64,000 bases of DNA from Parietichytrium sp. I65-24A. Its lineage: Eukaryota; Sar; Bigyra; Thraustochytrida; Thraustochytriidae. The position numbers were made by a program, and so were the translations under genes. Below, piece after piece: positions 2,957 to 61,801 of the stretch (position 1 is the stretch's first letter; every line of letters begins with the position of its first letter). Location of the stretch: contig BLSF01000019.1 of assembly GCA_012862575.1 (NCBI GenBank), positions 186,001 through 250,000 of the forward strand, given 5' to 3'. Below the pieces are notes generated by a model. The model saw only the letters and a program-made list of their open reading frames with translations, did no database searches and was not told where the DNA came from.

Positions 2957-3410
2957 TAGTTGTGTTGATTAGTGGAGCGCTGCAATCGCTGAAGAGAAAA
3001 GTGTTGCCTACCTTGCCCACGTGTGTTGTGCGTTTATTTAAAAAAGGATGTTTCGTTTCCCACAAAGCGCATATTTTCTTGCGGCAGCACTCAAGCGTCG
3101 TCTTTGCAGTTACTTTGAAAACAAAACGAACCAACAACTCATGATGCCTCCGTGCCCATTTATCGTGTGTAAGATCTAATTGTAAAAATTAAGTGTACGT
3201 AATTTAGGAGTGTGGTGTAAAATTCAAAAGACAACCTCACGACATCACAAAGTCCGCCGACACGAATCATGCAATGCTTTCAACACAAGTAAGTGAGGAG
3301 GTGCCCTTCTCAAAGACTTCCAGCAGTGGAAAGTCTTAGAATATAACAAAATTCTCGAGGTTCTCTCGAGACGCTTTAGCCCTTATGAGAGGGCCAAAAC
3401 ATTGTACAAG
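2957..3410. other. Convergent intergenic region
   Basis: This is the AT-richer 3' flank shared by FAM21 (plus) and the histidine kinase (minus). I see no gene, RNA or repeat in it. Confidence 0.6.
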
Positions 3411-8520: not shown

Positions 8521-8736
8521 ACAGCCTAGCCAGCCATTTGGGATGTGCATCAAGTGCATCAAGATGCATCAAGTGCATCAACAAGTCCATCATCACTGGA
8601 GCTCCTTCTCTCCTTCCTTCTCTCCTTCCTTCCTCTTTGTGTCCCTCACCCGTCGCGCGTACACCTCACTTCTTGAGGGAGCTTGGTAGGTGCGGGGCGT
8701 TGTAGTGTAGAGCAGGGCGGGCGGCAGGCGGCAAGG

Positions 8737-11700: not shown

Positions 11701-14700
11701 TCGTCACTGCGAGAGCTGAGAATTCCACTGAAAAGCCTTGGAAATATAGGGTCAGATTCTCAGTTCGCGCTCCGCATTTTGGCATTCATGAACGTTGAGC
11801 TGTCCGTTAATACCTTCTTGGAGCTCGCCGAGTATATCATTGAGACAGGCTCGACAAAGCTTGATCGCACGCTTCTAGCGTTATCCTCAGAACTGGTTGC
11901 GCATTCGGGAGCACAGGTCGGTATTGAGCTTGCAGGTCTTTTCTCGGACCAGATTCAAGTTCTGAAAAACCTTATCGCTTCTCCGAATCGCGAAAGAATT
12001 GAATCGATCACTGCGTTTGCAGCCTTCGAAGATCAAATAGCTATTGCTGCTCTGCAAGTTCTGGCGAAGGCTTGGGGAGAGAAAGGTGACAAGGCGCGCA
12101 AACAACATTCTTTCGCTCTATTCGCGCCCCTTCTTCAGATGATCGCTTCTCAACGTCGAATGGAGCTGTCACCTTCCATTCGCCAGTTTGTGTCTTCTCG
12201 AATAGACACGTTCGCAGACATTGTTGCACATATTCGTACTCAGTTGCTAGGACGTTGGGTTGCTGGCTGGGGACAAGACGACATCAGCATGATGAAGTTC
12301 TGTTTTCAAGTGCATGCTTCTGCCCCGGCGTTGATGGAGATCCTCAAGCTTGCTCTTCTCAATCCTCCTCAGAATCCTACTCAGCTGGCTTGTATTCAGG
12401 ACTGTCTTTTCTGGCAAGCCACCTCCAGCGAGAGCGAGGGCGAACTGGAACCCATCTTGAGACGCTTCGTCGAGGTCGCCCTGCCAGAGTCCATGGCTGT
12501 GGAATGGAATATCGTCGCGCTCCTACGCCACCCGAAGATGTCCCCTCTTCTGCCAGTTTTCATAGAAGCTTTCACAGATCGCCTTGAGGCGATCCAGTCT
12601 ATGTGGACTCCAAATTTGACGAATTGCGTCTCCGACGTGGCACTCAATTGCGATCTGTTTCCTTCAAAAGCTGTGAAAAGGTTTTGCTCGGTTGTTTTTC
12701 GCCCTCAAGTGCTCGAAACCAACTTGGAGAGCCTCATTTCAAATGATGAATACACACTGACAAGATTCGTTCAAGGCTGGGTTGCATTGGCTGATGCCTG
12801 GCCAAAACTCGTCTGCGACCCTGCCTGCTACCAGCTCGTGCTTGCAATGTATGACGGGAGTTTAGGTGAAAAGGACTGCGCCGTGCGCCGAATTATTCAG
12901 ATCTACGAAGACTCTGCTAAGGTGTCGATGAGCATGTCTGGGTTTCGAATTGGAAAGCTTGCAAAGGAAGATTGCAACTTGGATGCACCAGGAAGGGAAG
13001 GCTCCCTGAAGGAGGACATTTCTGCGGTCATAGGGTCTTTTGACTGGCTCTACAACGTGCAGTTCAAATCTTCGCTTGGAGCGAATTTCCCGTTGCTACG
13101 TAGCATGAGACCGCTCTCTACCAAGCCAGCATGCGAGTCTGCTTCCCGTGACATTTTTGTATTCGGTCGCAACACAGACTCTTTGCCTGCTGGTGCCGGC
13201 TCAAAATCAATGGCAAACAATGCCGATGAAGCTATTGGACGCAACGCCCAGGGTGGGGAGCAGAGCGACGATGATGCTGACGACGACAATGACATGGTCG
13301 ACGCTGTGGATGATAGGGTTGAAGACAATCAACGTGGTGGTATCGCCCTCGTGTTCAATTCTCGCGAGGCTGCACTTGAAGCCATTGAAAATACTCCTTT
13401 TTCGAGTGCCTCTCTTGATCCCAGCTTCTTCTTAAGTGCAATTGAGCAGTTGCTCACATTGCACGCTCTACTCTTGGACTTGCCAAAGGAAGATGTTGAG
13501 GCAGAGAACAACGAAGGCAAAGAACCTGAAAATGATTCGGACGATGAGGTGTCAATGTCTGCCGCGTTTCGCTTTTCTTTTGCGACTCGTCGATTCATTG
13601 ACAATGGTGCGCTAGGCTACTGCCTATGGGGACTGAGCTCTCGCTGCGAGGACGTGCGATTGAGAGCTGCTTCGTGCGTTCAGATATTTGGCCAAATTCT
13701 TTCCAGGGACAAAGCCTTTTCCGAGAGACTTCAATTCCTAGCACTCCTGCAAAGCTTGCGAGGTAGTGTCGTGGCGCCTGGTATGCCGTTACCGCCTCTC
13801 TTCTCCAGCTTCACATCTCACGCTGCCGAGATTCTTCTGCGGCCGGCTTCGCCTTTGTATGCCGAGGTGAATAAATTCATGCTGTCTCGCCCTTGGCTGA
13901 ATATTCACAGAACGCCGATGTTCTTCCATTTCTTTATGTCGCAGTCAACGACTTTCAAGAGCGAGCGAAGCTGGATCATGCGAGTCATTCGGGACGGAAC
14001 CAGAACTGTGCACGATGCTGATATCCTATTTGGTTTCAGCTCGTTCAGCATTATCATGGGATCTGCAGAGTCGCTCGATATCACAGATGCCTACATGCTG
14101 CACGGTGTATTGCAAGTCATCTTGAATTGCGCCAAACTTGGATCGTATGGTGTGAACCGCCTGCTGCGTGAGGGAGCCATGGTGTGGTTGTCAAACATTC
14201 TTCATAGGTTTGAGACCTCGCAAGCTCAATTTGAGTCTGTTGAAGCCGCTCTCCAGATCTTTGAATGCTTGACTTGCAAGCCCGGTGCGAAAACGGATCG
14301 CAGCAAGGAAATCACTCTCGCAGAGCAATTCGAGGCCGCTGTCGAGCAGTCAATGGTGCTAGTCCCGGTTATTTCGCAGATGGAGTCAGTACTAACCAAG
14401 TGCTCGCACTTCAAGCTGTCGGAGCAGCGCGACCTCTTTTCCGTGCTGCTAAACGGTCTTCACAACGCTTGCAAGCACTCCAAGCTGCACTTGCCGCCTC
14501 AAACTGTCCTCGCGCTCATCCAGATGTTTGACAAATTCAGGGAACTTGGCACACAAGAGATGTCCGAGAAGCTCCTGGACATTATTGTATCTATTCAGTT
14601 GATCTCGAGCATGCAAGTGCCAGTGTGGGCTGAAATCGTCCGAGCTTGCGTAGAAATGTGCCACGACGACAGGAGCACAGAAACTTTTCTCAGCTATCTG

Positions 14701-14985
14701 GATAACCTTGTGGAGACGCCAGCTTTATCTGAGGAAGTTAAAGCTTCCGTTTGCTCGGCGGCGATGGATGCACAACTTGTGAAACTTCGATTTAGAGCTA
14801 GCGCGGAGCAGACTCGAGCTCAGGTGGCTGCAACTCTCGGAAAGTTCCTTGCTCTGACAACAAAAGTTGAGGGTGGTCCGCATGATGTGCGCACCCCGTC
14901 GAAAGAGCCGTCTAAAAAGCGTGTCATGAGCTCCAAAACGGAGGTGAAAAAGAAGTCCAAAAAGAAGCGCAAAAAGTCCCTGTAA
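8737..14985 (+). CDS. URB1: URB1/Npa1 nucleolar pre-ribosomal-associated protein
   Basis: URB1 is a large helical scaffold of early pre-60S particles in the nucleolus, needed for 25S/28S rRNA processing. The 2082-residue protein fits the family (yeast about 1760, human about 2270). The N-terminal Npa1 domain lies at about residues 130-460 and includes a stretch near GLVQSLFKDLAGDPIGMV that matches the family pattern. The C-terminal NopRA1-type domain lies at about residues 1610-1810, recognisable from FIDNGALGYCLWGLSSR, RAASCVQIFGQIL, RPWLNIHRTPMF and RSWIMRVIRDGTRT. An acidic insert (near DDDADDDNDMVDAVDD) precedes it. The C terminus is a run of lysines and arginines that should act as a nuclear or nucleolar signal. 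I chose the ATG at 8737; the frame is open 18 codons 5' only from a TTG. No intron interrupts its 6.2 kb. Confidence 0.93.
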   Translation: MALSVAEQERIAPLVEALNSSSSEQVEHGLQALVRETREEWSAAKGAKDGDVGKEDKEAEAAGMKRPQLVPSYLKASPRCMEIFEWWDKAEAGKLGQKEKGGAQFVAAIMDALGVILQSEVAALVPPNAQSMVARHVLKAKMRSVASFFSSTMDTRLLHKGLNLLVGIVKYGPAVVRELVHKLDIGMSNITRLAGKVSRGKTPEKEQSAGARFGSPRFKCLQLCLAVLENGDVSVKKSISGSHGLVQSLFKDLAGDPIGMVTLFFEALRVHVLADRSMGRKIKISLFHPHSTILHGIVPMYQNQELRPLAHNLLKDIFMSEELSIFPSPSDANDSIGMDSKSTHLAEELSRWRESARSARLVLLNSLQPLDDMLQREMVFELLRYDASSAPRFLASSVGRLNLEPRESFRWVKSVHYLLQLLKLPVGESQGASVRNTIATLTNQKAVAIATAEWEQLADDYIACFLPTVKALPKSLLSRGLQSDSSLVTTLCLDVTMAILAKGRQVISLAVKSTTSAFIQERLQQSLQSKLMQHVPNVTLLLPFLAAVSPELSSQTNKSQDGTALASSKPLSELEWIALRSSRALLLYCNAIPLALRTGVDLAKLIGQASIETSSQTRLLTDFTLMQCLPCVPVLPTRWSSESALESLFRIRAVAFAHLNAESLAEIDASALYVLTLIISADHSELVSAMVKSLVKTCTSLSAAKFASTVILAAIGKPEQLLAQVVRAAQSDMASFQDIVADLVVETVTDVLDPRSLLGDEGIVSLLGEFEGGRRVLSYCNVLLGYDSHAKLSSLAFLMPKNPYVDVQGLLRHMVSAGIKDSSRTRLFGVKFIQPVEQVVALTTDVFRRMPVQEAKTTIRTLARLLGAFLSENDSLDELCLADVHFALDLLQIAVSVSPSDVAEIFSHPHFLEVTSLHNDVLTRIALLLDNAERNAPKASLNAERFADLLITEGGRLFKVTSRTGSQEARLNVVCHALLHMRYFLTKHSSLRELRIPLKSLGNIGSDSQFALRILAFMNVELSVNTFLELAEYIIETGSTKLDRTLLALSSELVAHSGAQVGIELAGLFSDQIQVLKNLIASPNRERIESITAFAAFEDQIAIAALQVLAKAWGEKGDKARKQHSFALFAPLLQMIASQRRMELSPSIRQFVSSRIDTFADIVAHIRTQLLGRWVAGWGQDDISMMKFCFQVHASAPALMEILKLALLNPPQNPTQLACIQDCLFWQATSSESEGELEPILRRFVEVALPESMAVEWNIVALLRHPKMSPLLPVFIEAFTDRLEAIQSMWTPNLTNCVSDVALNCDLFPSKAVKRFCSVVFRPQVLETNLESLISNDEYTLTRFVQGWVALADAWPKLVCDPACYQLVLAMYDGSLGEKDCAVRRIIQIYEDSAKVSMSMSGFRIGKLAKEDCNLDAPGREGSLKEDISAVIGSFDWLYNVQFKSSLGANFPLLRSMRPLSTKPACESASRDIFVFGRNTDSLPAGAGSKSMANNADEAIGRNAQGGEQSDDDADDDNDMVDAVDDRVEDNQRGGIALVFNSREAALEAIENTPFSSASLDPSFFLSAIEQLLTLHALLLDLPKEDVEAENNEGKEPENDSDDEVSMSAAFRFSFATRRFIDNGALGYCLWGLSSRCEDVRLRAASCVQIFGQILSRDKAFSERLQFLALLQSLRGSVVAPGMPLPPLFSSFTSHAAEILLRPASPLYAEVNKFMLSRPWLNIHRTPMFFHFFMSQSTTFKSERSWIMRVIRDGTRTVHDADILFGFSSFSIIMGSAESLDITDAYMLHGVLQVILNCAKLGSYGVNRLLREGAMVWLSNILHRFETSQAQFESVEAALQIFECLTCKPGAKTDRSKEITLAEQFEAAVEQSMVLVPVISQMESVLTKCSHFKLSEQRDLFSVLLNGLHNACKHSKLHLPPQTVLALIQMFDKFRELGTQEMSEKLLDIIVSIQLISSMQVPVWAEIVRACVEMCHDDRSTETFLSYLDNLVETPALSEEVKASVCSAAMDAQLVKLRFRASAEQTRAQVAATLGKFLALTTKVEGGPHDVRTPSKEPSKKRVMSSKTEVKKKSKKKRKKSL

Positions 14986-16064: not shown

Positions 16065-16911
16065 NNNNNNNNNNNNNNNNNNNNNNNNNNNNNNNNNNNN
16101 NNNNNNNNNNNNNNNNNNNNNNNNNNNNNNNNNNNNNNNNNNNNNNNNNNNNNNNNNNNNNNNNNNNNNNNNNNNNNNNNNNNNNNNNNNNNNNNNNNNN
16201 NNNNNNNNNNNNNNNNNNNNNNNNNNNNNNNNNNNNNNNNNNNNNNNNNNNNNNNNNNNNNNNNNNNNNNNNNNNNNNNNNNNNNNNNNNNNNNNNNNNN
16301 NNNNNNNNNNNNNNNNNNNNNNNNNNNNNNNNNNNNNNNNNNNNNNNNNNNNNNNNNNNNNNNNNNNNNNNNNNNNNNNNNNNNNNNNNNNNNNNNNNNN
16401 NNNNNNNNNNNNNNNNNNNNNNNNNNNNNNNNNNNNNNNNNNNNNNNNNNNNNNNNNNNNNNNNNNNNNNNNNNNNNNNNNNNNNNNNNNNNNNNNNNNN
16501 NNNNNNNNNNNNNNNNNNNNNNNNNNNNNNNNNNNNNNNNNNNNNNNNNNNNNNNNNNNNNNNNNNNNNNNNNNNNNNNNNNNNNNNNNNNNNNNNNNNN
16601 NNNNNNNNNNNNNNNNNNNNNNNNNNNNNNNNNNNNNNNNNNNNNNNNNNNNNNNNNNNNNNNNNNNNNNNNNNNNNNNNNNNNNNNNNNNNNNNNNNNN
16701 NNNNNNNNNNNNNNNNNNNNNNNNNNNNNNNNNNNNNNNNNNNNNNNNNNNNNNNNNNNNNNNNNNNNNNNNNNNNNNNNNNNNNNNNNNNNNNNNNNNN
16801 NNNNNNNNNNNNNNNNNNNNNNNNNNNNNNNNNNNNNNNNNNNNNNNNNNNNNNNNNNNNNNNNNNNNNNNNNNNNNNNNNNNNNNNNNNNNNNNNNNNN
16901 NNNNNNNNNNN
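16065..16911. other. Assembly gap (847 N)
   Basis: A run of Ns. Open frames reported through it are meaningless. The exact tandem repeat on its right edge suggests that the gap reflects an unresolved repeat array. Confidence 0.99.
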
Positions 16912-33589: not shown

Positions 33590-35106
33590 GTTTTCCCCTG
33601 GCAATGTGTTCCTCCTCCAACGCTCAGCTACGCACTCATGCTCTTGTTTTCCACCGTTTTCGACCTGGAGCCACACTCCGCGCGCTCTGACACCACGCAC
33701 TTGTGCGCCTTGCGAATTCGAATGCACTTGGCCCAACACTCCGTCTCCGCCACTCTCACCGTCCGCTCACGCAGGAAGGACCTGAGCTTGCGTGGATGCG
33801 TTGAGCGCCGTAAAGGCGAGGCACTGCAGGTGTGGGGAGCTAGTGCGCGGAGGGTTGCCGGAACGTTCCGAGTAAGGATGCGTTTAGCGGACTGTACGCC
33901 CCGCGGACAAAAGAGAGAGCGTGTCCCCGCAACGATACAAGCTGCTGCCGAGGTGGGCTGTCAACTCACTCATTCACAGTCAATTATTGAACAATGATGT
34001 CCAATGTCACTCAGCTAACTCAGCTAACAGTCGAACACCAACTCCTCCCTCGGAGGCGGCTCCTGAGACTCGCAAAGTGGGTGGGTCAGCTATGACCTGC
34101 TACAGCATGGAGAGCAAAGAAAGAAAGCAGTGGTGACTCTGATGGCCGGGCTCATCATGTCGGCGTTGGGCGCGTTGAAGTCACCCCACCTTCCGATAGG
34201 GTTTGTTTACGCTGTCACTTCGTGGCTTCACTTGCGTTGAAGCTGGGCCGCAATGCATCACTGCATCACTGCATCGATGGTGGTCAAGATTATCAAAGAT
34301 TGTCTAAAACTTGTCAAAGACTGTCAGAGATTGTCCAAATCATCGAGAGATGACTGTTGCGGATACGGTACTCAGTACTGTGAGTATCTGTGAGTACCGG
34401 TATTTTGGTACTACTAGTACCAGTACCGGCGGTTTACTCTTTTCCCACAAGTTGAAGTAGATGAGAAAGAGGTGCCAGACACCTGCGATGGATTTCGTGT
34501 GCACCCAGGAGCGCGATCCCGCAAGATTATCGTCGATCCTTCATTGTCTGTGAACAAAGAGAACAAAGCCAATGTTACAGCACTGCTACCGCGGCCTCTA
34601 TCACTTGCTACCATCTCCCTCCCTCCCTCCCTCCCCGCCCACCACCGCGTTCCACACCGAGACACTTCCACGGGCCTCCTTATCCTCGACACGCGCCCGT
34701 GCGCCTACTCGCGGACCTAGCGCACCCCCAACGCCCCCATCGTGCGTACGTGCGTACGTGCGCGGAAAGCGTTCCGCAGAGTTGCGGAAGTTGTGTAAGC
34801 TGCGGGAGATTGTGCGTGCTGGTTTGGTGACTGGGGAAAGTGCGGGTTTGCGACTTGCGAAGCTCGCTATAGCGCACGCAGCAGCAATACAAAGCAGGGA
34901 CATATAGCCCTTTGTTTCATTTTGTTTCTCCATTCTCCATTCGTTCCGCAAGGATAAGAGAGAGCCCCGGTGTAGAAGCTGCTCAATCAAGAAGTTGTCT
35001 GCGACCACGTTTTTGGCAGTGCAAGTTTAGGAGACTGTGAAAAGTGCGATTTGGACTTTGAAAAGTGCGATTTGGAGGAAAAGTGCGATTTGGAGTCCGT
35101 TGGGAG
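33590..35106. other. Divergent intergenic region (nucleotidase / ABC transporter)
   Basis: About 1.5 kb without a supported gene. It contains GCATCACT repeats near 34252-34277, an imperfect repeat built on AAGATTGTC and AAGACTGTC at 34286-34345, a GTAC-rich cluster at 34371-34430, a CCCT run near 34617-34636, GTGCGTAC repeats near 34741-34762, and the repeat in front of the ABC gene (35037-35095). Confidence 0.55.
35037..35095 (+). repeat. Threefold AAAAGTGCGATTTGGA repeat upstream of the ABC gene
   Basis: Three copies of AAAAGTGCGATTTGGA (the first may begin with one A fewer), spaced about 18-21 bases, end about 12 bases before the likely start codon, so they probably lie in the 5' leader. 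Confidence 0.85.
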
Positions 35107-37908
35107 ATGGGAGGATGGGCGTGCTGGGGTGACGGGTGGAGAGAAGTATGCGCGTTTCTTTGCGTGCTGTTGGCGGACGCGGGACTGTGTCTGGCGTTCG
35201 ACATGAGCGCCAAAGGCCTGGGCTCTTGGCGAGAAGGCATTGTGGCGCTGAGCGCGGGGCGATGCGCGGTGAACGTGGTGACGCTGCTTCTGTCGCTGAG
35301 GTGGGGGATTGTGAACAAGCATATCCAGGCAGAGGGCCTGGCGGCCGCGTATTCGGTGCTCTCCACGCCAGAGTTCAAACGGCCTCTGCTGCGCGGCCGC
35401 AATGGGTCGGTGTGGGATGAGACTCCGGAGGTGAGGGCGTACCGCGAGAGGCGACGCGCTGAGATGTGGCGGAACTTTTTCCTTGGAACGGCGTTTGTAG
35501 TGAACACGCTGGTGACATTCTACGTCTCCCTTCGGTGCGTATACATCGACTTTGTGACAGACTCTGCTCAGGCGCCTTTGCTCTTCGCGATCATCATATT
35601 GGCATCGCTGGAGTTCCACGTGCTCAAAGCCGCATGTGACGCAGTCACTCGCGTCAAAGGGCATCGCATCGATGGTCTCCACCCTCACAAACTGTATTTT
35701 TGGCCCAAGCTTCCATTCCACACGTGCGACCTCTGCCAGGCGCGCATCGCTGGGAAGGGGTACCGGTGCAAGCGATGCGACTTTGATGTTTGTCATCGCT
35801 GTTTCGCAGCCGCCATTAAACTGGAGGAGAGCTCCAAGGCCGGGGGCGAGAGCGAGAGCGAGAGGGCAAGCTCCCCGATGGCCCTTCGCGGGAACGGGAA
35901 TGGGGTATTGCGTCGTGACGAGGAGCCCGAGGCGAGAGTTCTTGTCATGGACAATGCTGCCTCTCCTCGCTCGGCGAATGGAACCCGGCATGTTAGCGCA
36001 AGTCTTGCGAGTGGCGCCGAGGAGGAGAATGCGGGTGAAGAAGATTGCGATCTTTTGCATGACGATTCCGCTGCCCGCCGAAAGTTTTTCGAGTCAAAGC
36101 GAGAGGCCCAAGTTTCGGCCGCAATTAAGAGAGCTGAGCAGAAGATCATCTGGTCGCTCCTAAAGCCCCACTCCGCGCTCCTCTTGGTCTCTGCGGTCTT
36201 CACTCTCGGATTTGCAGTCTCAAGAATCGGACTTCCAAACTTTCAGGGAAACATCATTGACGCAGTGTTCGAGAAGGACGTCGATAAATTTCACGGGCAG
36301 GTGATCATGCTCGCAAGCTGCAGCGCAGTGCTAGTCGTCTTCGGAATGGTGCGCGACGCCGCGATATCGGTAGTAGGTCGCAGAATTGCGACCGAAGTTC
36401 GCAACAGGCTCTTCGTGGCAATGATGCATCAGGACCTGGAGTTTTTTGAGAGAAATATGTCGGGGTACCTCACTGCGAGTATTACGAACGATGTGAACGC
36501 GATGGTGGCTCCTTGGAAGTCCATGCTGACAAACACCATCAGCAATGTCTTCATCGTAATTGGTGGCGTGGGCATGTGCCTTATCACTTCTTGGAGGCTT
36601 GCTGCAATCGCTGTGACCAGTCTCTTGCCGATGGGGTACGTCGCCCATGTCTACACAAAGTGGTCAACGCAAATAAACCGAGAAATTTGGTCTGGGATCT
36701 CGGATGCAAACTCGGTGGCGACGGAGGCTCTTGCAAACATCCGCACGGTAAAGTCCTTCGCAATGGAGGAGAAAGAGGTGCAAAGATTTGTTGGAGCAAC
36801 GAACAATGCTCTTGGCAAGGGCATTCGGGATGCCATCGGCACCGCGATCACAAACGGAATCTCGCAACATCTAAGCGTAGCAGGCACGGTACTTGTTTTG
36901 GGCTTTGGTGGATGGGAAGCGCTTAATCATCCGCACACTCTTTCCCCTGGAGAGCTGGTTACCTTTCAACTGTACTGGACGATGGTCAATACGGCGTACA
37001 AGAGTGTAAGCGACAGCATGAACGATTTTAGCAGAGCACACGGGGCTGCTCAGCGCGTGTTCGAGATGCTGGCCAAATTGGACAAGCTTAGTGTGGAGCG
37101 GGAGAACTTGCAGCGGACCGAGGTGGTTTCTCTGGATGTTTCCCAGCCGGTCAAGATTGAATTTAACCATGTAGACTTTTGCTACCCTGCAAATCCCACC
37201 GCGCGAGCACTGCGCAACGTAAGTCTCACGATAGAGCCAAATGCTGTCACTGTCCTTGCAGGGCGATCGGGAGCTGGAAAATCTACACTGTTCAATTTAC
37301 TTTGTCGATTCTACAGCCCATCGGGAGGATACATCGCGGTAAACGGCCAACCTTTAGAGAATATAGACAGGGGCACTTGGCGCAAAATGCTGGGTCTGGT
37401 ATCGCAAGATGTTCCTCTTTTCGGGATGACGATTTTCGAAAATTTAATGTATGGGATGGAGCCTTCGTCCGTTACTCCCCAGGAGGTGATCAAGGCCGCA
37501 AAAGACGCGAACGCGCACTCGTTCATTATGAATACCAAATATGGATACCAAACAAAGCTCGGTGAGAGAGGCGTGCAGTGCAGTCTCGGCGAGAAAGCGC
37601 GGCTGGCTATCGCTCGAGCTCTGCTGCGCAAGCCGAAAGTTCTTCTCTTGGATGAGCCAACTGCGAATCTAGATCCAGAGTCTCAGAGGCTGGTGCAAGA
37701 AGGAATCCAGCACCTTGTCGCTGCTAGGTCCTCAACTGTCATTTTGATCACCCATAAGGACTCGCAGTTCGTCCAAAACCACGCAAATAAGATATATGTG
37801 TTCGATGCCGGAACAGTGGCGGAGCAAGGGACGTATGACAAGCTTACTTCCGACGAGTCATCCTTGTATTTCCACTTGTTTCGCCGAAATAGAGCGATGG
37901 CATCCTGA
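35107..37908 (+). CDS. ABC transporter (ABCB-type half transporter) with internal zinc finger
   Basis: The 933-residue protein has an N-terminal membrane part of about four helices (for example CAFLCVLLADAGLCLAF and LLFAIIILASLEF), then a zinc finger at about residues 205-235 (HTCDLC, GYRCKRCDFDVCHRCF) of ZZ or C1 type. A low-complexity linker leads to the exporter core: six membrane helices (about 350-660) and a nucleotide-binding domain (about 680-925). The latter has Walker A GRSGAGKST, Walker B VLLLDEPT, and a degenerate signature, CSLGEKARLAIARA, where LSGGQ is usual. It should act as a dimer on an organelle or plasma membrane; the substrate is unknown. The finger lies on the cytosolic side if the topology is standard and could bind lipid or a partner. 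I chose the ATG at 35107; the frame is open further 5' only from a GTG in a repeat. The 5' coding part is distinctly GC-rich. Confidence 0.88.
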   Translation: MGGWACWGDGWREVCAFLCVLLADAGLCLAFDMSAKGLGSWREGIVALSAGRCAVNVVTLLLSLRWGIVNKHIQAEGLAAAYSVLSTPEFKRPLLRGRNGSVWDETPEVRAYRERRRAEMWRNFFLGTAFVVNTLVTFYVSLRCVYIDFVTDSAQAPLLFAIIILASLEFHVLKAACDAVTRVKGHRIDGLHPHKLYFWPKLPFHTCDLCQARIAGKGYRCKRCDFDVCHRCFAAAIKLEESSKAGGESESERASSPMALRGNGNGVLRRDEEPEARVLVMDNAASPRSANGTRHVSASLASGAEEENAGEEDCDLLHDDSAARRKFFESKREAQVSAAIKRAEQKIIWSLLKPHSALLLVSAVFTLGFAVSRIGLPNFQGNIIDAVFEKDVDKFHGQVIMLASCSAVLVVFGMVRDAAISVVGRRIATEVRNRLFVAMMHQDLEFFERNMSGYLTASITNDVNAMVAPWKSMLTNTISNVFIVIGGVGMCLITSWRLAAIAVTSLLPMGYVAHVYTKWSTQINREIWSGISDANSVATEALANIRTVKSFAMEEKEVQRFVGATNNALGKGIRDAIGTAITNGISQHLSVAGTVLVLGFGGWEALNHPHTLSPGELVTFQLYWTMVNTAYKSVSDSMNDFSRAHGAAQRVFEMLAKLDKLSVERENLQRTEVVSLDVSQPVKIEFNHVDFCYPANPTARALRNVSLTIEPNAVTVLAGRSGAGKSTLFNLLCRFYSPSGGYIAVNGQPLENIDRGTWRKMLGLVSQDVPLFGMTIFENLMYGMEPSSVTPQEVIKAAKDANAHSFIMNTKYGYQTKLGERGVQCSLGEKARLAIARALLRKPKVLLLDEPTANLDPESQRLVQEGIQHLVAARSSTVILITHKDSQFVQNHANKIYVFDAGTVAEQGTYDKLTSDESSLYFHLFRRNRAMAS

Positions 37909-50291: not shown

Positions 50292-53200
50292 ATGGACGTC
50301 AAGCCGTCGCTGGCTCTGTGGAGTCCAACGAAGCCTTCAGAAAGAAATAATGGCGCAGCAGGATCGCACTTTCGATTCCGTGGAGGGTCGGGCATGCAAG
50401 CTCCTGGTGAAGAAGGCGGCTTCAAGGAAATCAAAGATGAGAGTATCAAGTCGTTGATGTTCAACAAGTGCAAAAGCTCTGCTTCAGCGGCAGAGAAGAT
50501 GATAGAGGAAGGGCTTGGCATCGAGCCTGATTTGTGGGAGGTGCTCCCTTTGGATAGATTCAGTAGCTTGGACGAGTTCTCTTCTTGGCTCAAGGAGAAT
50601 ATGGTGGATACCTCAAAGTGGGGAGTTGGAAACAGCTCGTCGACGCAGACGCTTTTTGAACAGTTGAGAGCCGGAGAATCGGTGCTGCTTGTGAGGATAG
50701 AAGGTCCTGAGCCTGTAGATGAAATTAAAGCGCAGAGCCCCTCCAAACGAGCCATTCACCCCCTTCAAAATCGCCTGCGAAGCGCCTCTTGCGTCTCCAA
50801 GCCGAAAACTGTTCTGCGATGTATTCGCACTGTCCGCGTCAAGCTGAAACACCGTTTCGGTCGGGACTTCAAGTACTTGGTGCAGTACTCACAGGAAGTC
50901 AAAGCCAAAGGAGAAATTCAATACCGAAATATCTTCCTCTCTTCAAGGATGAAAAACGGAGAAAACGCTTTTGATGCGGCAAAAAGGAGCGTTGAAAAGG
51001 AGTTAAAGAACATTGGTGGGAAGCACGAAGAATACATTTCGCGAGCAGATGTGCTGATACCAAATCGGAGCACAATTTCCTTGGTCCTCGAGGATGCAGA
51101 GAGCCCTTCTTTTCCGGACCTTATGACTCGCTACATACTTTTTACTGTGGAGGTCAGCGTCAAGTATGATTTTCCCGACGGGCCTTTCTTTTCGGTTGAA
51201 AAGTCTCTCTCTACAGGCCTCGCGACCACTCATAATTGGAAGTGGAAGTGCAAGAGAGAAGTGGAATTGATCGAGCAGTCTCCAATGTTTGCAAGTGTCG
51301 ACTTCGACAAGAAGGTCCTTGTCGGTGAAGAGAGTAAAGCAGGAGTCGACGAAAACACTGTGATGTACGACCTGTCCGACTCGGATTTTAATCCGTTCAT
51401 TTCCAATGCGCACCTACGACGGAGGCTCAAAAGGTGGGGCTTTGATAGCTCGGAGATCGCGACCATGTTCGCAATCGCTTCAGCAACTGCCATCGCTGAG
51501 GGGCAAGGCGTGGAAACACCCCAGCCCGATCGCCCAACTTGGATCACGAAGGAGGTGTTCATCCAGTACTTTAAGCCGTTACTAGAGTCCATGTTTGTTC
51601 ATGGCAAGGAAAAATTGCTGGAAGTGATGTCCCAAGAGCACTTGGATATCCTCTCTGAAATGTACTTAGACTGCTCAAGGATTTACCCAAAGCTGCTGCA
51701 TGAAGGCTTTTCCAATTCGTTTGTACTTCAGGTCCAAGCTGTTGCTCCTGGCAAGTTTGTGGATCCCACTATTGTCAAATTGGACAGCCGGCAGCGGATG
51801 GAGGAAGAAGGCGCCAACTATTTAAAATTAGCAGAGTTCATGGGGGACTGCGCGCCAAGCATTTTGAAGTACGAAGTGGATCCTTCCGACAGTCGCAAGA
51901 TTGGGGGTCTCAAATTCGAACTCGTTGGTGCTGTTTGGATGCTTCCCGACTTTCGTCAATCAAAGTCCGCGGTGGAAAGTCAGGCACACCTTCTCAACAC
52001 CTTTACTGCCCTCTACAAACACGAGCTGGCCCAGGAATCCAACGCTTTTCAAGCCCACGTCCTTGGAAAGCTCGGGGTGAGCGAGCGCAGGGCAAACAGT
52101 AGCGTGAAGAAAACGTTATCCGAAGAGAGCTTTATAACCATGGAGCATTCCCGCGAGATGAATTCCCGACAGAGCAAACACTCCCCGGGGTCCATGAAAA
52201 ATATTACCGAGGTGCAGGAATCTAAAAGCCATGATGGCGACTCGACTAGTCGGCTCTCAACAAGCCGGAGCGAACTCGGTGTGAACTTCTCCGATGAGTT
52301 TCGCGACTCAAGAGATGGCGACCTCTCTCCAATTTTCAACGAAACATTGCCTATGGAAGAAGATAACGATCTTGCGGACGTGGAGCAGGCAGCTGAAGTA
52401 TTTGGGAGCGTTCCGCTTGTATTAAAAGAAGTGTTTGGCGAGATTCTTCGAACCACAACGCTCTCTCAGGCGAAAAAACTCGAGGAGGTCAACCTAATTG
52501 AACAGTACAGAATTTTGGCACTCATAGATGAGGTCATCTTACAAACCCCAAATGCGATCCCTCGCCCACATCGAATCGATATTGAACGTTTTGATGCGGA
52601 TAGAAAAGTGCGCAAGCTGTTTGAGACATTCAAGACTTTATGCACCAAAACCGGTCAACACACAGCCAAGCATTCCTATGAAATGAGTTTGGTGCATGGC
52701 GACTTAAATGGGCAGAATAGTAAGTTGGGGCAAGGTTTTTGGTGCGAGAGCGAGATTCGCCAGCCAGCTCGCAAGTCTAACAAATCGGGATGTTCTGTTT
52801 TCCAGTTTTGATTGACTCAGAGGGAATCGTCTGGTTAATCGACTTTGCCCTCTCGGGGATGGGGCACATCCTGCAGGATCTATTAAAGCTAGAGTCGTGC
52901 TTGCTGTTTGAATACGTGTCCGTGGAGAGTGACAAAGAGCTGGAGGTGTTCAAAGACATGGCGAGGGCGTTAATTTATTGCGATGATTTGAGGCTGCAAG
53001 TTGTTTGCGAAAGATTGGATGATCGCTCTAAAATGGACACCTTCGATCCAAGGATGGAAGAGAATATGATTAAAGCGCGGTTCACGTGGGAGGCAATAAA
53101 GACGGTCCGAATGTACATGGGAAACTATGCTTCTGGAAATCCAGAACCCGTGCAAATGGTAATCGGCATGCTCCACTTCTCCCTCAAAGCGCTCTACTAT

Positions 53201-56200
53201 AGGGATCTGGAGGACAAGCGGTTGCCACTTTTTATCGCAACAGAATGCGCTCAAGTTCTGTGTTCTCAGCTTGAGCAACAAGGGTCTTTGAAAAAAGTTG
53301 TCTCCGTGTCGCACGGCCCAAGCGGGGAGAATCGAGTTGCGTTGATGAATCGTGAATTGAACAATTCTCAGCTTGAGTACGAAAAGAAGCGGCATTTTCA
53401 TGACATCTACTTGCGGGAGTCGTTCGTAGTGGACGTCATCACACGTGAACGCATTCGAATCGCAGAACAGCCTGTTGAGCTAGAGCTAGTCGACAATCAG
53501 TCAAAGAAACGCTTCATGGAAAACAAGATGGACGTGGACGAGCTAGAGATCCAGCGTAGTCTGCAGAAACGGCTGAATGAATGGAAAAGTTTTATGAGTA
53601 GCGAGAGCGACTCCAGACTGGCAGGAAGGAAGAATGGGGTAATTTCTGCAACGCAGATATTCAGCGACTTTCAGCGCAAGATAAATGTCGTCATCTTGGG
53701 GGGCGCAGCTTCCGGCAAGTCGTGTTTGCTAAGACGCATTATGTTGTCGGCGGCCGATAGCCAGACCGGGAAAGAGTCAGATGTGATTCCGGTGCTCATT
53801 CTTGTCATCTCTCTTGCGAGATTCTTGAGCCAGCATCCTGAGAACGCGAAAGGGGACCTTCTAGACAAATTCTTGGCTCATCAGTATGGTGAAGGCAGCG
53901 CTCGTGTATCATTCTTGCGCAAAATGAGAGAAGATGGCCGTCTCTTTCTTCTATTTGACGGACTTGACGAAGCCGGGGACTACAAAGGTGTCATCGAGGA
54001 GTACATTCCAACACTCACTACTTCTGTACGCCGGATGGTGATCTCCTCGCGTCTTACAGGCTTCAATAACGAACTTTTCAGAGAGTTCAACTTCTATCAC
54101 ATGTCTCCGCTGACAGAAGAGATGCAGACGCGGATCATATCGTCCCGTGTGAATAACGACTCAAACTTGGCCCAGTCGATCAGGAAGCAGTTGGAAGACA
54201 AAGCGTTCTCTGAAATATCAAAGAACCCGCTAATGTTGACTCTCCTTGTGTCTTTGCTGAGCAAGACGCTAGGCTCAAGAACCGAAACTTCGCTCGAAAG
54301 CTTCCAAGAGCGGATGTACGACTCAGGAAGTGAACCTCGCACTCCCTCCCCAATTCAAAACCGAGCTTACTTGTACGAGCACGCTTTGGACCAGCTTCTT
54401 AATCACAGCTCCATGGTCAAGTTTGGGATGAGAAGAAACCTCAACGACAAGAAAAGAGAGGTCACCATCAAGGTCATATCCAGCGACCTCTGTAGGCTTT
54501 TCCTCAAACTTTTGGCCTACCACGCTCACAAAGAGCGCATTAGAGACTTCGACCGATCACTTACAACGAAGCTGGTAAAAGAGGGCCACTTTGGTCCGGG
54601 CGTTTCACAACGCGATGTCTCCTTCGTGGTGTCCACACTGAACAACGCAGTCTCCGATGGGCGCTGTGGTCTTTTCTCTCTCACGGAGGTGGAGCAAAAA
54701 CGATCTCAAGCAACTGGCTTATCAGGTATAGATGAGAATGACGAGCTTATGGAGCAAAGCCATATCATGCGATTCGTTCATCTTAGCTTCCAGGAATTCC
54801 TCGCAGCGCAGCACATTGTGGAGACATTAGCCGATACGCTGCCGGAAAGTGATGAGGGCCTGGAAACGGAGTCTACCTTAGAGCCTTTTGCAAAAAAAAT
54901 GGCTGAATTTCGACTTCTTGGGGAAGGCAATGTCCTGCACGATCACTGGTGGCAGGGCGTTTTAATGCATATGTCTGGAGTGATGTCGCCCCGCGTGTTT
55001 TATGCGTTTTGCAAAATGGTAATGCTCGAAAAGGACCCTACCAAGGCGACTGTATTTTTGTGTGCAGAGATGTCCAAGGAGGTGTTTAAACGCAAGGTTC
55101 TTGGCCCAGCAACAGACGTGACCAGAATGCGGGAGACTGTGGACACATTCTTGAAGGGCTGGTTCCAGCGGTACACCGAACTGGTTGATCTGATTCGAGC
55201 TCTGATACATCAGTCGAAGAACATCCAGCACTTTGCGCTTCGCGAGGTGCGTCAGTTCTGCGATAAACGTATCACTTTGGACGCTCTGTATGGTATCGTC
55301 TTTGGTCCCGATGCAGATGCGGAAAGCGTGAAAGCTGGTCGCAGTACCGCTCCATTTCTTCGACATGCGGCATGGTATGCAAAGGTCTCTGCGCTGCACA
55401 TTATCAGCTTTTTCCCAGAGATCAAGAGCGACCCTATACTTTTGGACGTTGTTAAAGACCTGTGGATGGATGAGAGCCCCATCGTGCAAAAAGATGCGGT
55501 AGAAAGCATCAAAGCCCTCGGCGCAGAGAAGGAAATGAGTATTCTGTCTGAAGTAATTCGTGAGATCAAGGACGAAATCGAATGCTCGAATGGACACCAG
55601 GTCATTCAAGCGCTTGGTATCACTCAGTCCCCAGTGGTTGAAGAGCTCTTGAAGCAATTGGCCATGGATCCGGAATTTTCTTCTCCGGCAACTGAAACCC
55701 TCAGAGCATTTCCGCTCACGGACGAGGTTGTTGATTGTTTCTGCAGGGCCATAGGTCATAGTGACAACGTACTAGTACGCAAAAGAGCTGCTGAGATCCT
55801 GATTCTGAATCCCCAGGCTAAGTCCATTACCTTTCCAAATACAGTGGACAGCGCCTTTGAAAAGTGGATTCTCGAAGACGATAGCGAACACGTGATTAAG
55901 GCTTTGGAGACCATTCAGCAGCTTGGTGTATACACGGTTGCAGTACGACATGCAGTTGAAAAACTTGTAAAGTCCTTGAGCTCTTCAGCTCTTCTTTTGA
56001 AGGACCAAGTCCCTGTCTGGATTGCTGCAGTGGATGCGGCTAGTGCTTGCGAAGAATTGTCACGCACGGATTGGTACTCCAGGGCAGTTCAGAAGGGAAG
56101 ACAAGACAAACACCCCGCGGTGAGGTGCCACTCAATCCGAATGCTCGAGTCAGCAGTTCGAGCTGATGAAGATCCAAAGCAGCGTTCCAAGTGGATCTCG

Positions 56201-59200
56201 GATATCAAGGAAATGCTTCATCGTGATAGTAATCCTTCTGTTCAGCAAAACGCAATCGAGGTGTTGCATCGCTTGAAGGAGGGGTCTGTGTTGATGTTTG
56301 TGAACCTCTTTGCGGATCCGCAGAACAACAAGGCGGTTAGAGGTTTGAGCGCGAAAATCGCGATAAAGTTGCTTCAAGACAAGGGAGAAACGCCAAAGGT
56401 CAATTTTCAGCAGACTCTAGAACTACTCTTTCGTGCCTCCGCTGAGCACACAGATGAATTTCATACTCTAAGCTTAGTTGCTGCCGCCTCTCTCTGTCTC
56501 TGCATGTTGAGATCCGGAATAGCTACCAAGGATGTTCCTGTAGAGCTGCTTTTTGAACATCTACTTAAACCCTTAAGGCAGGTCAGTGATGGTGAAGGGA
56601 TTGCCGATTTGGGCTCTGTTGCCGCCATCAGCGATTTGTACGAGGACATCTGGAAAGCGTTTGGCGCTACACGTTGTTCTGGTCTTCTCCACGACCTTTG
56701 CTCACTGTATGAGAAGGTTCATCCGGACAGCAAAGAGCAATGGGGTGCAGTCCTCTTGCAACTCGGCGACGCTGGATGGAGGTACGAATCGCCATCGCTT
56801 TGGTCGGATCTCTTCTGGAAGGACTCCTCGGACGGGACGTTAAGACTCTGTTTGCTTTCTCTGGCTCCGACAGACTTTGACAGTGTGTCTCAGCAGGTGA
56901 TTCAAGCGCTTGGCCTTGATACCACAAGCCGGTTTCTTCGCTCTCGATGCCTGATTTGCCTCGTCCAGCATGGGAAATGGGAAGAGCCAGCCGTCCAACT
57001 TGCAGTGCAAAAATGGCTTTTCCAAGAGGACCGTATGGCAACCTTGGACGCCCTGGATACAATTTTGAAGGCCAATATCGGTGGAGAGATTCTCCTCGAA
57101 CTGATCCCTCGAGTGTTGCAGGGCGCTGTAGCTACGATTTGTCCAAGCGAAGTACTCACCGGAAGTGGCAGCCACACTCGCTTGGTTTCGATTATCCGAA
57201 ATGTAAGGGATACCAACGATCTCGCCCAGGGTCTGCAGAAGGGAGATTCGGCCCCAATTCAAATTGGTGAAAATGCGGTCCTTCAGGTCTGGATCGTCAA
57301 AGCAGCGAAGCAAATTTTGCTTCAGCCATCTGTCGAGTTCACCGAAGCTGACCTGCTTCGAATGCTGGAATCTGACGAAACTGGGATGCTCATAGCATGC
57401 ACGGCTCTGGAGAAAAAGGAGTCCGTGCAGATCACTGATGCGATTGCCTTCAGACTGTTTGCTTTACTTGAAGAATATGGCAATACTTCGGAGGTTTCTG
57501 GCATGAATTTGGAGACCCAGCGCAAGATGGGTGTGGTGAGCATCGACGCAGATTTTCCCCCTGCCCAGGTTGTCCCGTATGCTGCTGCATACACGCTGAG
57601 AGCACGTTTCAAGCGGACTCTTCCGTCTTCATGGGCAATGCAAAAGTACGTGACGCATGACCGGGCGATTATACGCCAAACAGCCTGGGCTTGTATATCT
57701 GGCTCACCAAGTGAGCGCTTTTTTGCAGAACTAAAGAGTCAGCTTCTGGATAAAGATGAGGAGCTCACAGTTCGGCTGCAGTGCCTAGAAGTATGCTTCG
57801 ACTGGATTCGAACGGTCCAGTCATCTCTACTCAGGGAAGCAGACGAGGAGCTTTCCGAAGAAAAGCTAGACGACGCGAAGGAGGCCCGCAAGAATGCGGT
57901 AGAGTTGTGCGAAAAGATGGAAGCCACCGTCGTCTCCCTGCTTGAAGAGCTAGGCCAAGGGCATGAAATTATGGATGAAGACCGCCTTTACATTTGCTGC
58001 GTGCAAAATCTCCAGACGCTACCTTCAGGAATCCCCCTCACGAGCTTGGGTGTGCTATATGAGCGGCCAGATTTGCACAGGAATCCGGATGCTAGGTTTC
58101 AGCTTGTCAAATTATTGACAGGCACGGCATTTCGAGAACTCCCACCTTTGAGGAGCGTTTTGAGTCTGCACACCAGCACACCTGAAGCAAGACTTTGCTT
58201 TTTGTCGACCTTGCGGCAAAGCCTTAATCCTGTTCTCCGTGGCGATCCAGGTTCCGCGTTGTCGAACGAGCTTGCAACGGAGGTGTTGGGACACCTCTGC
58301 CGAATCCTGTCAGAGGAAGCACAATTTCTTCACACCAATGCAGATGTTGACGCCAGCGTAAAGGTGATAACAAGCTGTTTCCAGCTTGCACAGTCGGTTC
58401 CACTTGCGATTCCAACGGACTTGATCGTGAGCATACTGCCGCCCATGATGGAGCAGCAGAAAGCGCATCCGGCAGTGCTTCAAACCCTCGAGTACCTCCT
58501 GGAAGCTCCGCACACGCGTCTTTCACTTGCGCTCATAAAAATTATTGTGAGCATTGTCAAACTCAACGTTCAGAAGAATGCTTCCATTGAAAGCTCGGTG
58601 TCCATCAACGCGAATAATTTCTTCAGCAATTACGAAGTTCGAGACTTTGAGGAAGTGTGCAGCCTGATTCGTTTTCTCTCGGATAAGGAGGTCGCAGACT
58701 TTTTGTTTGATTGTATTATCTCCTACTTCCGAACTCAAATGGCCAACTGCGGTGGCCCGAACATCAAACTTCCCGGTTTTGAAGAGGCAAGAAGTTTGAC
58801 CCATTCTTTGCTCGAGGAGAACCCTGGCTCGCTCGAATTAGCTTACCTCTCCAAAGAGATGCAGACTGGCTTTGTGATGCGTGATCACACACTGAACAGG
58901 ATCAATCGAATATCGCTCAAAAGTCACATGAAAATTCGAGAGCAGAGGTCACAACGCGAGGAGAGTCAAAAGATGCTCAAAGAAGAGTGGGACGCAAGAC
59001 GTGCAGAGTGGCCTTGCTTTGCCGCTAGGTCGAAGAGAATGGTTCGTGCAGTGCCGGAATTGCATAAGTACCAGCTTGGCCGGACTGGCATAAGGCGCGT
59101 GACAATGTACGTCAACTCGGTTCCCGGGGAGATGAAGTTTGAATGCTCCCTTCTGTCTCACCTTGTCCTTCCTGAAGTGAATCGGAAGCTCGTTATGATG

Positions 59201-61801
59201 GGGATCCCTGTGGAAGTGGTTGCGCTTGTCCCGAGCCTCTTAGATGTGGGTTTCGTGCCAACAAACCTTATCGGGTGTGCGCCTTCCTCAAGCCAAGAGA
59301 GCGATGATGAGAACCGTTTCGCTCTCCGCCTTGGTGCGCTGCAGTTCTGCATGCCATTTGTAATTTGCTTAATTGGGGAGAGAATCGGGGACCTCATGGA
59401 CGATCCGCAGGTGCTCAAGCTATGGGGCGCAGCAGGAGACCACGAGACACTCCCGACGCTAGAGAGATCTGTAGCATTTCTTTCCCGGCCTGCGCTTCCG
59501 AATCACGCATTGTGCTATTTTCGCAGCTCACAGAGCTTGGAGCCGCTGTTCGTGGGTGAACAACGCAAAGCCGTGGAATTCGAGTATCCGGGAAACCGCG
59601 ATGTAAAAATTGCTTTTGACGAAAACAAGCGCCAGATTCGCTCCCATCCGTATGCAAAGTGCTCGGAGTACACTCTTCCGATAAACACAACCGATACCGG
59701 ATTCCTCGACGACATTCAAGTGGGGACGGATGAAGAACCCACTCAAAATTTTATGAAACGTGTTGTCGAAGACATCTTTCAGAAGCTCGCAAGCGAGTTC
59801 CCGCCTAACCGGCTGCAGCAGCCCCTGCCCAAGCCGCAGATTCATTACGTGCATCAAGAAATGCTGGAACACCTGCCTTTCTTGTTTCATGAAGAGCTTC
59901 GCTTCCACGAGCGGGTCTTACTCAGCAGTTCCTCACTCACAGACGTCTACGATAGCGTCATAGGGAGGTTTCCACGGTGCCGAAGGGAGAATCTGAACGA
60001 TTTGCTGAATTTCTTGACCGAGCATGAAGAAGAAGATAGGCTCGTGCGCTACGATCGCCGGTTTGCTACAAGCAAAAGTCTATGCAGGCCCGACAATGAA
60101 GTCGGAAACATCCCCATCCTCGTCACTGGCAAATCGGGATGCGGAAAGACGTCTTTTTTGGCAACTTTTGCTGATTATCACAGAAATTCAAGCGCCTCGA
60201 CACGAACCCCACTCGTCATTTTCCATTGTTGCGGAGCGTCGCCAGCTTCTACCGACTTGTCAAACACTTTGTTGCGCGTTGGGGCCGAGCTGCTAAATGT
60301 CTTCCCAACCATTTTGGGCGAAAGCCCTGACCTCGCCCCTCCAAGACACGCGGGTATTTCCATCGGTAAAGTTCGCGAATGGTGGCAAGAGGTTCTCAGC
60401 AAGGCTTCAGAAGCTGCTTTGAAGGTTCATACGAGACCGATAGTCATCCTCGACCAGATTCTGGAGCGTACATCCGGCGCAGATGATGAAGACATTTGGG
60501 AAACATTGTTTTCAAAACAGTTTGGCGGTCGAGCACCACCTGGGATGACCTTCATAGTATCCGGATCCGATGGTTGCCAGCGAAAAGAACATTTGGTGGC
60601 TCGGATGTCACGGGAGAAGCACATCAATTTCCATCTACTCCAACTCAGTCCACTAGACCGTGATGAGCGCATTGAAGTGCTGAACTTCCAGGCATCGAAA
60701 TTTGGGGTCAATCTTAGCCAAGAGCTGGCCAAGTGTGTTCTCAAGAAGAGGTCTGCCGGCCACCCGCTCTTCCTGACGCTTTTGATTCAAGAGCTGGCTG
60801 CGAATACCCACTTCTTCGACTCTGAGAAGAAAGTTAGGCAGTGCATTGAAGACTTTCCGGATAATATGAGTTTCGAAGCCGCTTCCCAAGGGGAGAAGGC
60901 GAGAAATTCTCCCAGATCGACCGCGAAAGAGCCATCTAATGGAGAGACCCTTTCCTACGTCACACTAAATAGAGGAGGGGTGTTTGCAACCACTCCTGAG
61001 GATCCTCGGTCCTCAATTCTTCCCTTCATCGCTAGACTCGAAAAGGCGTGTGGCAAAACTCTCACCAAATTTGGGCTTCTTTTCCTGGCGCTTGTGGATA
61101 GTATAGAGGAGTGCATGCTATTTGATCTCTGCTGTCACAAGAGCACAACGGTGTCGACTCGACGCTGGACATGGTTTTGCTTGCTAATAGACCCGCTCAT
61201 CAATTTCATGCCGGTCTATTGCCCTCATCACTTGCCAGCCATTCAAACGAGCGCTCAAGAACTACAAGGAGAGCGAAAGCGCTCTTTTAATGCACTGCGT
61301 CTTCGTAGTTTGGCGCACTACGCCTCTCTTTCGAACGACGAGGCTCTGCTAGTCAAGCACTCTGCGCGTGTTGTTTCACTTCGGAACCGCTGGATGCGCT
61401 CTGCAATTCTTGCCTACTACGATGAGAGCAAGCCCGAACTACACGGGCTCCTTGCCAACTTTTGGCTCGCAAATCTCAAACTTTGGTACCGCTCCAAAGA
61501 ACACCACACACCTTCTTTCCTCATCCAGGGGTTTCGATCCATCGTGTCCCACGCTGTTCAATCAGAAAACGCCATGGAAGTGTTCAAGTCACTGCTGCGG
61601 GAAGAGGACGCCATTTGTGGCCTTGGCAGCCTGAGCCACTTTGGCGATGTTTTCGACGTCACTCTGAACCGCGTCAAGTCGGAGCTGGCCGAAATGGCGC
61701 CTACTGCCGACACCAAGTACCTCACATACCTCTGCGAGCGCGTGCTGGCCCACCGAAAAAGCATCGTTCTCGACCCGCTCACCATCAAGGACCTCATTTA
61801 G
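50292..61801 (+). CDS. Giant protein: Nudix-like, TCAD9 kinase-like, NACHT, HEAT-like solenoid, second P-loop NTPase
   Basis: Two exons (50292-52719 and 52806-61801) encode 3807 residues. A Nudix-like region lies at about 200-345 (YRNIFLSSRMKNGENAFDAA, then KELKNIG, a degenerate box). A kinase-like domain at about 360-870 resembles ternary-complex-associated domain 9: VVDPTIVKLD-like N lobe, then HGDLNGQNILID and VWLIDFALSGMGH, the latter read across the intron. A NACHT NTPase follows, with Walker A LGGAASGKSCLL near 1106 and Walker B LFLLFDGLDEAG near 1190. Helical HEAT-like repeats fill about 1400-2600. A second STAND-like module has Walker A VTGKSGCGKTSFL near 3250 and a weak Walker B (IVILDQILER), followed by a C-terminal helical part. 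STAND NTPases are typically signal-gated switches in immunity or cell death; a sensing role here is inferred. No membrane segment is seen. Confidence 0.85.
52720..52805 (+). other. Intron 1 of the giant NTPase gene (86 bp)
   Basis: It begins GTAAGT and ends TTTTCCAG. Exon 1 ends after the first base of a codon. Joining it to exon 2 restores an Ile codon and the continuous motif HGDLNGQNILIDSEG, while reading straight through gives a stop at 52811. A pyrimidine-rich stretch precedes the acceptor. Confidence 0.93.

Follow-up and report, generated by a model that had tools for sequence, protein, structure and literature searches.

The gene reported here bears on two groups of proteins. The first comprises proteins with DUF4062, which is reported to be a TIR-like domain with NADase activity, both in human TEP1, where the active-site residue is E1008, and in a bacterial system that defends against phages (preprint PMC13174449). 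DUF4062 adjoins a NACHT NTPase in human TEP1, NWD1, NWD2 and NPHP3, oligomerisation activates TIR-like domains, and the authors speculate that NACHT drives this step in TEP1 (PMC13174449). The second group is that of the prokaryotic TCAD9/STAND proteins. Prokaryotic NTP-dependent conflict systems are treated in PMC7159879, the main text of which does not use the term TCAD; TCAD9 is named as associated with vWA-MoxR-VMAP in PMC10910872, and the accessible parts of these two papers report no activity for it. Here we describe a predicted gene of the thraustochytrid Parietichytrium sp. I65-24A that links the prokaryotic TCAD9/STAND and the eukaryotic TEP1/NPHP3-type DUF4062-STAND groups, previously described apart, in one chain. 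The gene occupies positions 50292-61801 of a stretch of 64,000 nucleotides (contig BLSF01000019.1, positions 186,001 to 250,000; hereafter the window), to which coordinates refer unless another locus is named.

The predicted chain combines a TCAD9 kinase-like domain, a NACHT NTPase, a HEAT segment, a diverged TIR-like domain and a second STAND NTPase. As far as could be tested, with no eukaryotic genome collection among those searched, this set of domains has no precedent as a single eukaryotic chain; no description of it was found in the literature searched, which left most subscription journals outside. With TEP1, NPHP3, NWD1 and NWD2, compared by the published description of these human proteins, the chain shares a TIR-like domain of the DUF4062 kind beside a NACHT-type NTPase, in the same order. 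The accessible part of the description mentions no TCAD9 kinase in these four proteins (PMC13174449), and the TIR-like domain in the window has diverged and lost the DL[RQ]WG motif. With the vWA-MoxR-VMAP conflict systems, the source of the TCAD name, the chain shares a TCAD9-type domain, but these systems are bacterial, consist of several genes and include MoxR and vWA partners. No MoxR or vWA partner was detected by Pfam at an E value of 0.001 in the 10 large open reading frames (ORFs) of the window that were scanned, out of 31 frames of at least 250 residues. In a eukaryote, such genes need not stay together as an operon.

Gene model and domain order

The initial annotation gave the coordinates correctly (50292-61801) and described a 3807-residue frame. 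The length holds for the spliced product, 3807 amino acids plus a stop codon; the single open frame does not, since the product is joined across a predicted intron of 86 nucleotides from two plus-strand ORFs that overlap in different phases (50292-52811, 839 residues, and 52790-61801, 3003 residues). The intron, with the ends GTAAGT...TTTTCCAG, interrupts the kinase catalytic loop HGDLNGQNILID. The ATG at 50292 is preceded by an in-frame TAG twelve bases upstream, the joined chain has no internal stops, and there are no N letters between 50292 and 61801. The unspliced first frame matched the Pfam TCAD9 profile with 35.6 bits over profile positions 7-308, below the cut-off of 40, and splicing raised this match to 88.3 bits over positions 7-372 (E value 8.3e-25), which provides independent support for the exon join. 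Codon use was also compared with that of five neighbouring ORFs in complete 300-codon blocks and in three frames, and the reading frame beat the other two in 12 of 12 blocks.

The exon join is a prediction, and an artefact could have arisen if two or more genes were merged or the exons wrongly joined. We regard this as very improbable, because exon 2 by itself forms an open frame of 9 kb, the intron falls inside the TCAD9 domain, the score of which more than doubles upon splicing, and the reading frame has the top coding score in every block. The features of the gene are as follows.

50292-52719, plus strand: exon 1, 809 codons plus one base, with the N-terminal region, the TCAD9 N-lobe and the first part of the C-lobe (from the ORF, splice join and coding score)
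51690-53023, plus strand: TCAD9 domain (PF19974), APH-type kinase-like, residues 467-882, split by the intron, with K496, E506, D804, N809 and D822 retained
52695-52816, plus strand: catalytic loop HGDLNGQN-ILID, spanning the intron (from the sequence and the join)
52720-52805, plus strand: predicted GT-AG intron, 86 nucleotides, within the kinase catalytic loop (from the sequence, the join and the gain in TCAD9 score)
52806-61801, plus strand: exon 2, with the remaining TCAD9 domain, NACHT, helical solenoid, TIR-like domain, second STAND NTPase, C-terminal region and stop codon
53687-54139, plus strand: NACHT NTPase core, residues 1104-1254 (Pfam NACHT, PF05729, 62.4 bits, E value 6.2e-17, cut-off 26.7)
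53699-53722, plus strand: NACHT Walker A, GGAASGKS, residue 1108
53939-53974, plus strand: NACHT Walker B, RLFLLFDGLDEA, residue 1188
54770-54808, plus strand: RFVHLSFQEFLAA, residues 1465-1477
54878-59020, plus strand: long region interpreted as a helical solenoid, with approximate limits and partly inferred
59096-59815, plus strand: diverged TIR-like domain of the TEP1/NPHP3 type, residues ~2907-3146, directly before the second NTPase
59462-59464, plus strand: E3029, the presumed catalytic Glu (from an alignment that includes the window)
60026-60790, plus strand: second STAND NTPase, NPHP3/TEP1-like, residues ~3217-3471
60125-60154, plus strand: second Walker A, TGKSGCGKTS, residue 3250

The NACHT-type Walker A/B pair noted initially was confirmed, with NACHT over the Pfam cut-off and both motifs located. 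The stretch RFVHLSFQEFLAA presumably resembles the winged-helix motif that ends NACHT modules. As for the proposed long helical solenoid, positions 56075-56443 alone match HEAT/Cnd1 profiles (HEAT_2 at 6.7e-10, over its cut-off, and Cnd1 at 5.7e-6), so that the proposal stands for this stretch, and the remainder is probably of the same kind. A PADLOC search returned mad8 alone (4.4e-7), on the NACHT stretch, an NCBIfam search gave five matches that were all far below their cut-offs, and a sequence search of the PDB with exon 2 gave no match at an E value of 0.01.

The TCAD9 domain and its bacterial relatives

Residues 467-882 of the spliced protein match both TCAD9 and the APH family (31.2 bits, cut-off 23.2) over the Pfam cut-offs, in keeping with the TCAD9-type kinase-like domain that the initial annotation had recognised; residues 360-870, the span on which it had staked this assignment, do overlap the TCAD9 match of 88.3 bits. 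The motif HGDLNGQN starts at residue 802 of the joined protein and WLIDFALS at residue 819. When the window domain was aligned with 25 bacterial TCAD9 sequences, all nine bacterially invariant columns proved to be kept (E506, H802, G803, D804, L805, N809, I821, D822 and D834). Among the 18 columns conserved to at least 90 percent, 17 are kept, including G472, S474 and K496, the exception being a change of Val to Ile at position 494. We take the kept columns to be the Gly loop, the VxK lysine, the helix-C Glu, the catalytic Asp, the metal-binding Asn and the DFG Asp.

The fold was modelled on a bacterial relative (L080, a Myxococcota-group TCAD9), for which AlphaFold, with 29 rows, returned a model with a predicted local distance difference test score (pLDDT) of 92.2. 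Foldseek comparison of this model with the PDB gave aminoglycoside phosphotransferases as the best matches (best E value 7.3e-7), followed at lower ranks by tryptamine, amicoumacin, maltose and homoserine kinases, with a probability of 1.00 among the best 50 matches listed. On the model of the bacterial relative, TCAD9 is an aminoglycoside-kinase-like (APH) fold, to which the window copy is assigned by profile. Given the kept kinase columns and the fold of the relative, the window domain looks like an intact APH-type kinase, with phosphotransfer presumed from sequence. A PDB sequence search with the domain itself returned weak kinase matches (best E value 0.012). Between the lobes the window domain has a Ser-rich insertion that the Myxococcota-group rows lack, and the rows L035-L041 carry a different sequence at this place.

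Starting from an alignment of the window domain with a protein encoded on a Rhizobium plasmid (L001), 11 bacterial loci were reached, the weaker of which look like plain APH-type enzymes, and Pfam TCAD9 was over its cut-off in seven of the nine genomes searched from these loci. In larger sets, TCAD9 exceeded the cut-off in 6 of 201 Chloroflexota-group and 17 of 188 Myxococcota-group genomes; some match at an E value of 0.001, mostly below the cut-off, was present in 55 and 142 of them, respectively. A control set of 14 well-known genomes contained six with a TCAD9 match and none with a match over the cut-off, demonstrating that the cut-off matters.

Eight bacterial TCAD9 ORFs were scanned with Pfam for their architecture, and three carry an NTPase: TCAD9-NACHT-FGE (L099), TCAD9-nSTAND1-WD40 (L037) and AAA-Pkinase-TCAD9 (L036). 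The others are Pkinase-TCAD9 (L035 and L038), TCAD9-TCAD2 (L039) and isochorismatase-TCAD9-phosphatase (L100, and likewise L101, where the isochorismatase match is below the cut-off). A P-loop motif was found in 3 of 25 kinase-loop ORFs from 27 loci, several of these ORFs ending at locus edges, and the three are the same genes. As three of the eight ORFs combine TCAD9 with an NTPase of the STAND or AAA type, the pairing of TCAD9 with a STAND NTPase is not new to the window, and the statement in the initial annotation that the two occur together in prokaryotes holds for some bacteria. L099, from a Myxococcota-group genome (G266), has TCAD9 followed by NACHT in one chain like the window protein; it differs in its length of 1331 residues and in its C-terminal sulfatase-modifying-factor domain, and Pfam detects no HEAT, DUF4062 or second NTPase in it. 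L037, from an Anaerolineae genome (G003), has TCAD9, a STAND NTPase and a repeat domain in the same order, but is 2351 residues long, carries WD40 rather than HEAT repeats, has nSTAND1 as its best NTPase match and contains one P-loop by motif.

The partners and the fold of TCAD9 bear on a possible role as a metabolic or nutrient sensor, in which an APH-type small-molecule kinase would be gated by STAND switches and would have no immune role. The fold matches listed are small-molecule kinases and APH-type relatives, and bacterial TCAD9 also occurs with receiver-like domains (L006-L008, by eye) and, as in L100 and L101, with isochorismatase and phosphatase domains. We nonetheless consider this role improbable, since both STAND/NACHT pairing and the presence of TIR-like domains typify signalling in conflict and cell death (PMC7159879, PMC13174449).

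The window NACHT region was compared with 140 Myxococcota-group genomes and matched five places in three of them. The best match (1.5e-7) is a gene beside the TCAD9-NACHT-FGE gene of G266, which itself matched at 7.7e-6. NACHT is a broad family, and these matches are therefore weak evidence of kinship. The G266 locus (L099 73-7440, G266:C145) places the TCAD9-NACHT-FGE gene beside a second NACHT gene on the same strand, the C-terminus of which is FGE-like by eye. Elsewhere, L100 3051-6293 and L101 2869-5910 encode TCAD9 followed by a dual-specificity-phosphatase-like domain, which places kinase-like and phosphatase-like domains in one chain, and L036 3697-7344 encodes AAA, protein kinase and TCAD9 in one ORF of genome G003, a genome with many TCAD9 matches and varied partners.

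A donor for the TCAD9 domain was sought in a tree of 26 sequences, in which the window sits on a very long branch (2.96) with no supported partner, and we therefore claim no transfer from a named bacterial group. A viral origin was likewise set aside, as two scans of viral contigs gave no relative. The plasmid search returned one weak Rhizobium match for TCAD9 (E value 4e-3) and none for the NACHT part, a phage search with the Rhizobium TCAD9 protein as the only query gave no match, and neither did a first scan of genome contigs.

The TIR-like region and the second STAND NTPase

The second Walker A and its NPHP3-like NTPase module, also predicted at the outset, were recovered by Pfam: NPHP3_N (PF24883) matches with 32.4 bits (E value 1.3e-7, cut-off 24.8), and nSTAND1 reaches 24.9 bits, below its cut-off of 27.1. 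The module keeps 10 of 11 bacterially invariant columns. Among 151 genomes, only G105 was matched by the C-terminal module of the window protein (E value 1.4e-4), and this through the NTPase part, which aligns with a DUF4062-STAND ORF by BLASTP at 5e-9. The matched ORF (1526 residues) has DUF4062 upstream of its NTPase (1.7e-12), and the DUF4062 part shows a short collinear match to the window protein, CMPFVICLIGERIG against CRPFFLCFLGQRRG (E value 0.010). The same order of DUF4062 and then STAND NTPase, like that of TEP1 and NPHP3, is seen in the bacterial loci L130 3-4580 (G105), with WD40-like repeats by eye, and L170 1-2694 (G607).

The TIR-like region, which the initial annotation did not contain, adjoins the second NTPase on its N-terminal side. 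An independent DUF4062 profile was built from eight bacterial DUF4062-STAND ORFs aligned without the window, and hhalign matched the region to it with a score of 41.25 (P 2e-5). None of 200 shuffles reached this score, the best being 26.3. The protein was also scanned in 72 stretches, each of 250 residues; the top four (34-43) all overlap the region, with 18.9 as the best non-overlapping score. Of the 25 columns invariant in the eight bacterial rows, 13 are kept, including G3000, R3002, G3004, E3029 and R3049. E3029 aligns with a Glu that is invariant in the eight rows, in an alignment that includes the window, and we infer that it corresponds to the catalytic Glu. The DL[RQ]WG motif is present in all eight bacterial rows and absent from the window; this loss makes a role of the TIR-like domain as scaffold or regulator appear likelier than that of a working NADase. 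We treat the region as a diverged TIR-like relative and not as a member of DUF4062. An AlphaFold2 model of the C-terminal module, with AAA+/STAND matches of low template modelling score and a plant NLR first, was not used as evidence, the TIR-like part being too uncertain.

These features raise the question of whether the protein is an NPHP3/TEP1-like scaffold with a part in structure or trafficking, acting at a cilium, a vault or another large assembly, with NTPases that drive assembly and kinase and TIR-like domains that bind. The likeness of the C-terminal half to NPHP3/TEP1-type DUF4062-STAND proteins, the lost motif and the very large size would all fit, as would the report that NADase activity is found in TEP1 only and not in NWD1, NWD2 or NPHP3 (PMC13174449). 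Such a role is nevertheless rather unlikely in our view, because complete retention of the bacterially invariant TCAD9 columns would not be expected of a binding-only domain and because TCAD9 in bacteria shares its chain with NTPases and enzyme domains.

Proposed function and genomic setting

STAND NTPases are nucleotide-controlled switches. The reading we prefer, to which we give about even confidence, is that the gene encodes a eukaryotic STAND-type (NLR-like) signalling protein, a sensor with a kinase output; its domain content is suggestive of a danger sensor whose components are known above all from bacterial defence. The role in danger sensing or self-recognition put forward in the initial annotation is putative. 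The solenoid may sense a ligand or damage signal, the binding of which would open NACHT and allow it to exchange ADP for ATP, whereupon the chain would oligomerise. Oligomerisation would cluster the N-terminal TCAD9 kinases and lead to phosphorylation of a small molecule or protein. The TIR-like/STAND half at the C-terminus could be a second switch that gates the first, or could add an NAD-linked output.

Several observations weigh against the preferred reading, starting with the confinement of NADase activity to TEP1 among the four human proteins. The independent profile covers residues 2907-3007 only (83 columns), the alignment that continues through E3029 to residue 3146 has columns that were set with the window present, and 12 of the 25 invariant columns are changed. 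Pfam DUF4062 (PF13271) gave no match to the TIR-like region at E values up to 5, a PDB sequence search with it gave three chance-level matches (best E value 1), and the model of the C-terminal module was poor (pLDDT 54.3). Immune receptors often form families; the window contains one copy of the architecture, and no recognisable immune genes are among the Pfam-named neighbours.

A bolder and doubtful version of the signalling protein is a single-chain two-switch immune executioner, with an APH-type kinase at one end, a TIR-like domain that acts on NAD at the other and one STAND NTPase to drive each. If this were true, two signals would have to agree before cell death or shutdown, in a device that a microbial eukaryote put together from modules which, elsewhere in this analysis, occur in different proteins of bacteria. 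The gene is a concrete candidate for asking whether TCAD9 works as a kinase under nucleotide-dependent control, and whether a TIR-like domain that has diverged beside a STAND NTPase still acts on NAD.

Residues 1-466 have no domain assignment beyond one weak lead.

50940-51005, plus strand: weak, degenerate Nudix-box-like stretch, residues 217-238 (hhalign probability 2.9 percent over 22 columns)

A Nudix domain had been seen here by eye and was rejected: Pfam gave no Nudix match at E values up to 10, and hhalign against 23 bacterial Nudix sequences scored 19.03, with 18.9 for the best of 200 shuffles. A PDB sequence search with residues 1-458 returned three weak matches (best E value 0.44).

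Judged by its predicted genes, the setting is eukaryotic, with an Urb1/Npa1 gene at 8677-14982 (Pfam), an RCC1-like gene downstream of the giant gene, and the intron itself. A run of N at 16065-16911 is probably an assembly gap and accounts for false open frames on both strands and for the low G+C content of the block there. A 5'-nucleotidase, an ABC transporter and a hybrid histidine kinase were also identified nearby by Pfam. In the window, positions 35062-37905 hold an ABC half-transporter ORF preceded by a match to a C1-type zinc domain (C1_2, 1.4e-6), an unusual pairing, and positions 3414-6239 encode a hybrid histidine kinase (PAS, HATPase and receiver domains) in a eukaryotic setting.

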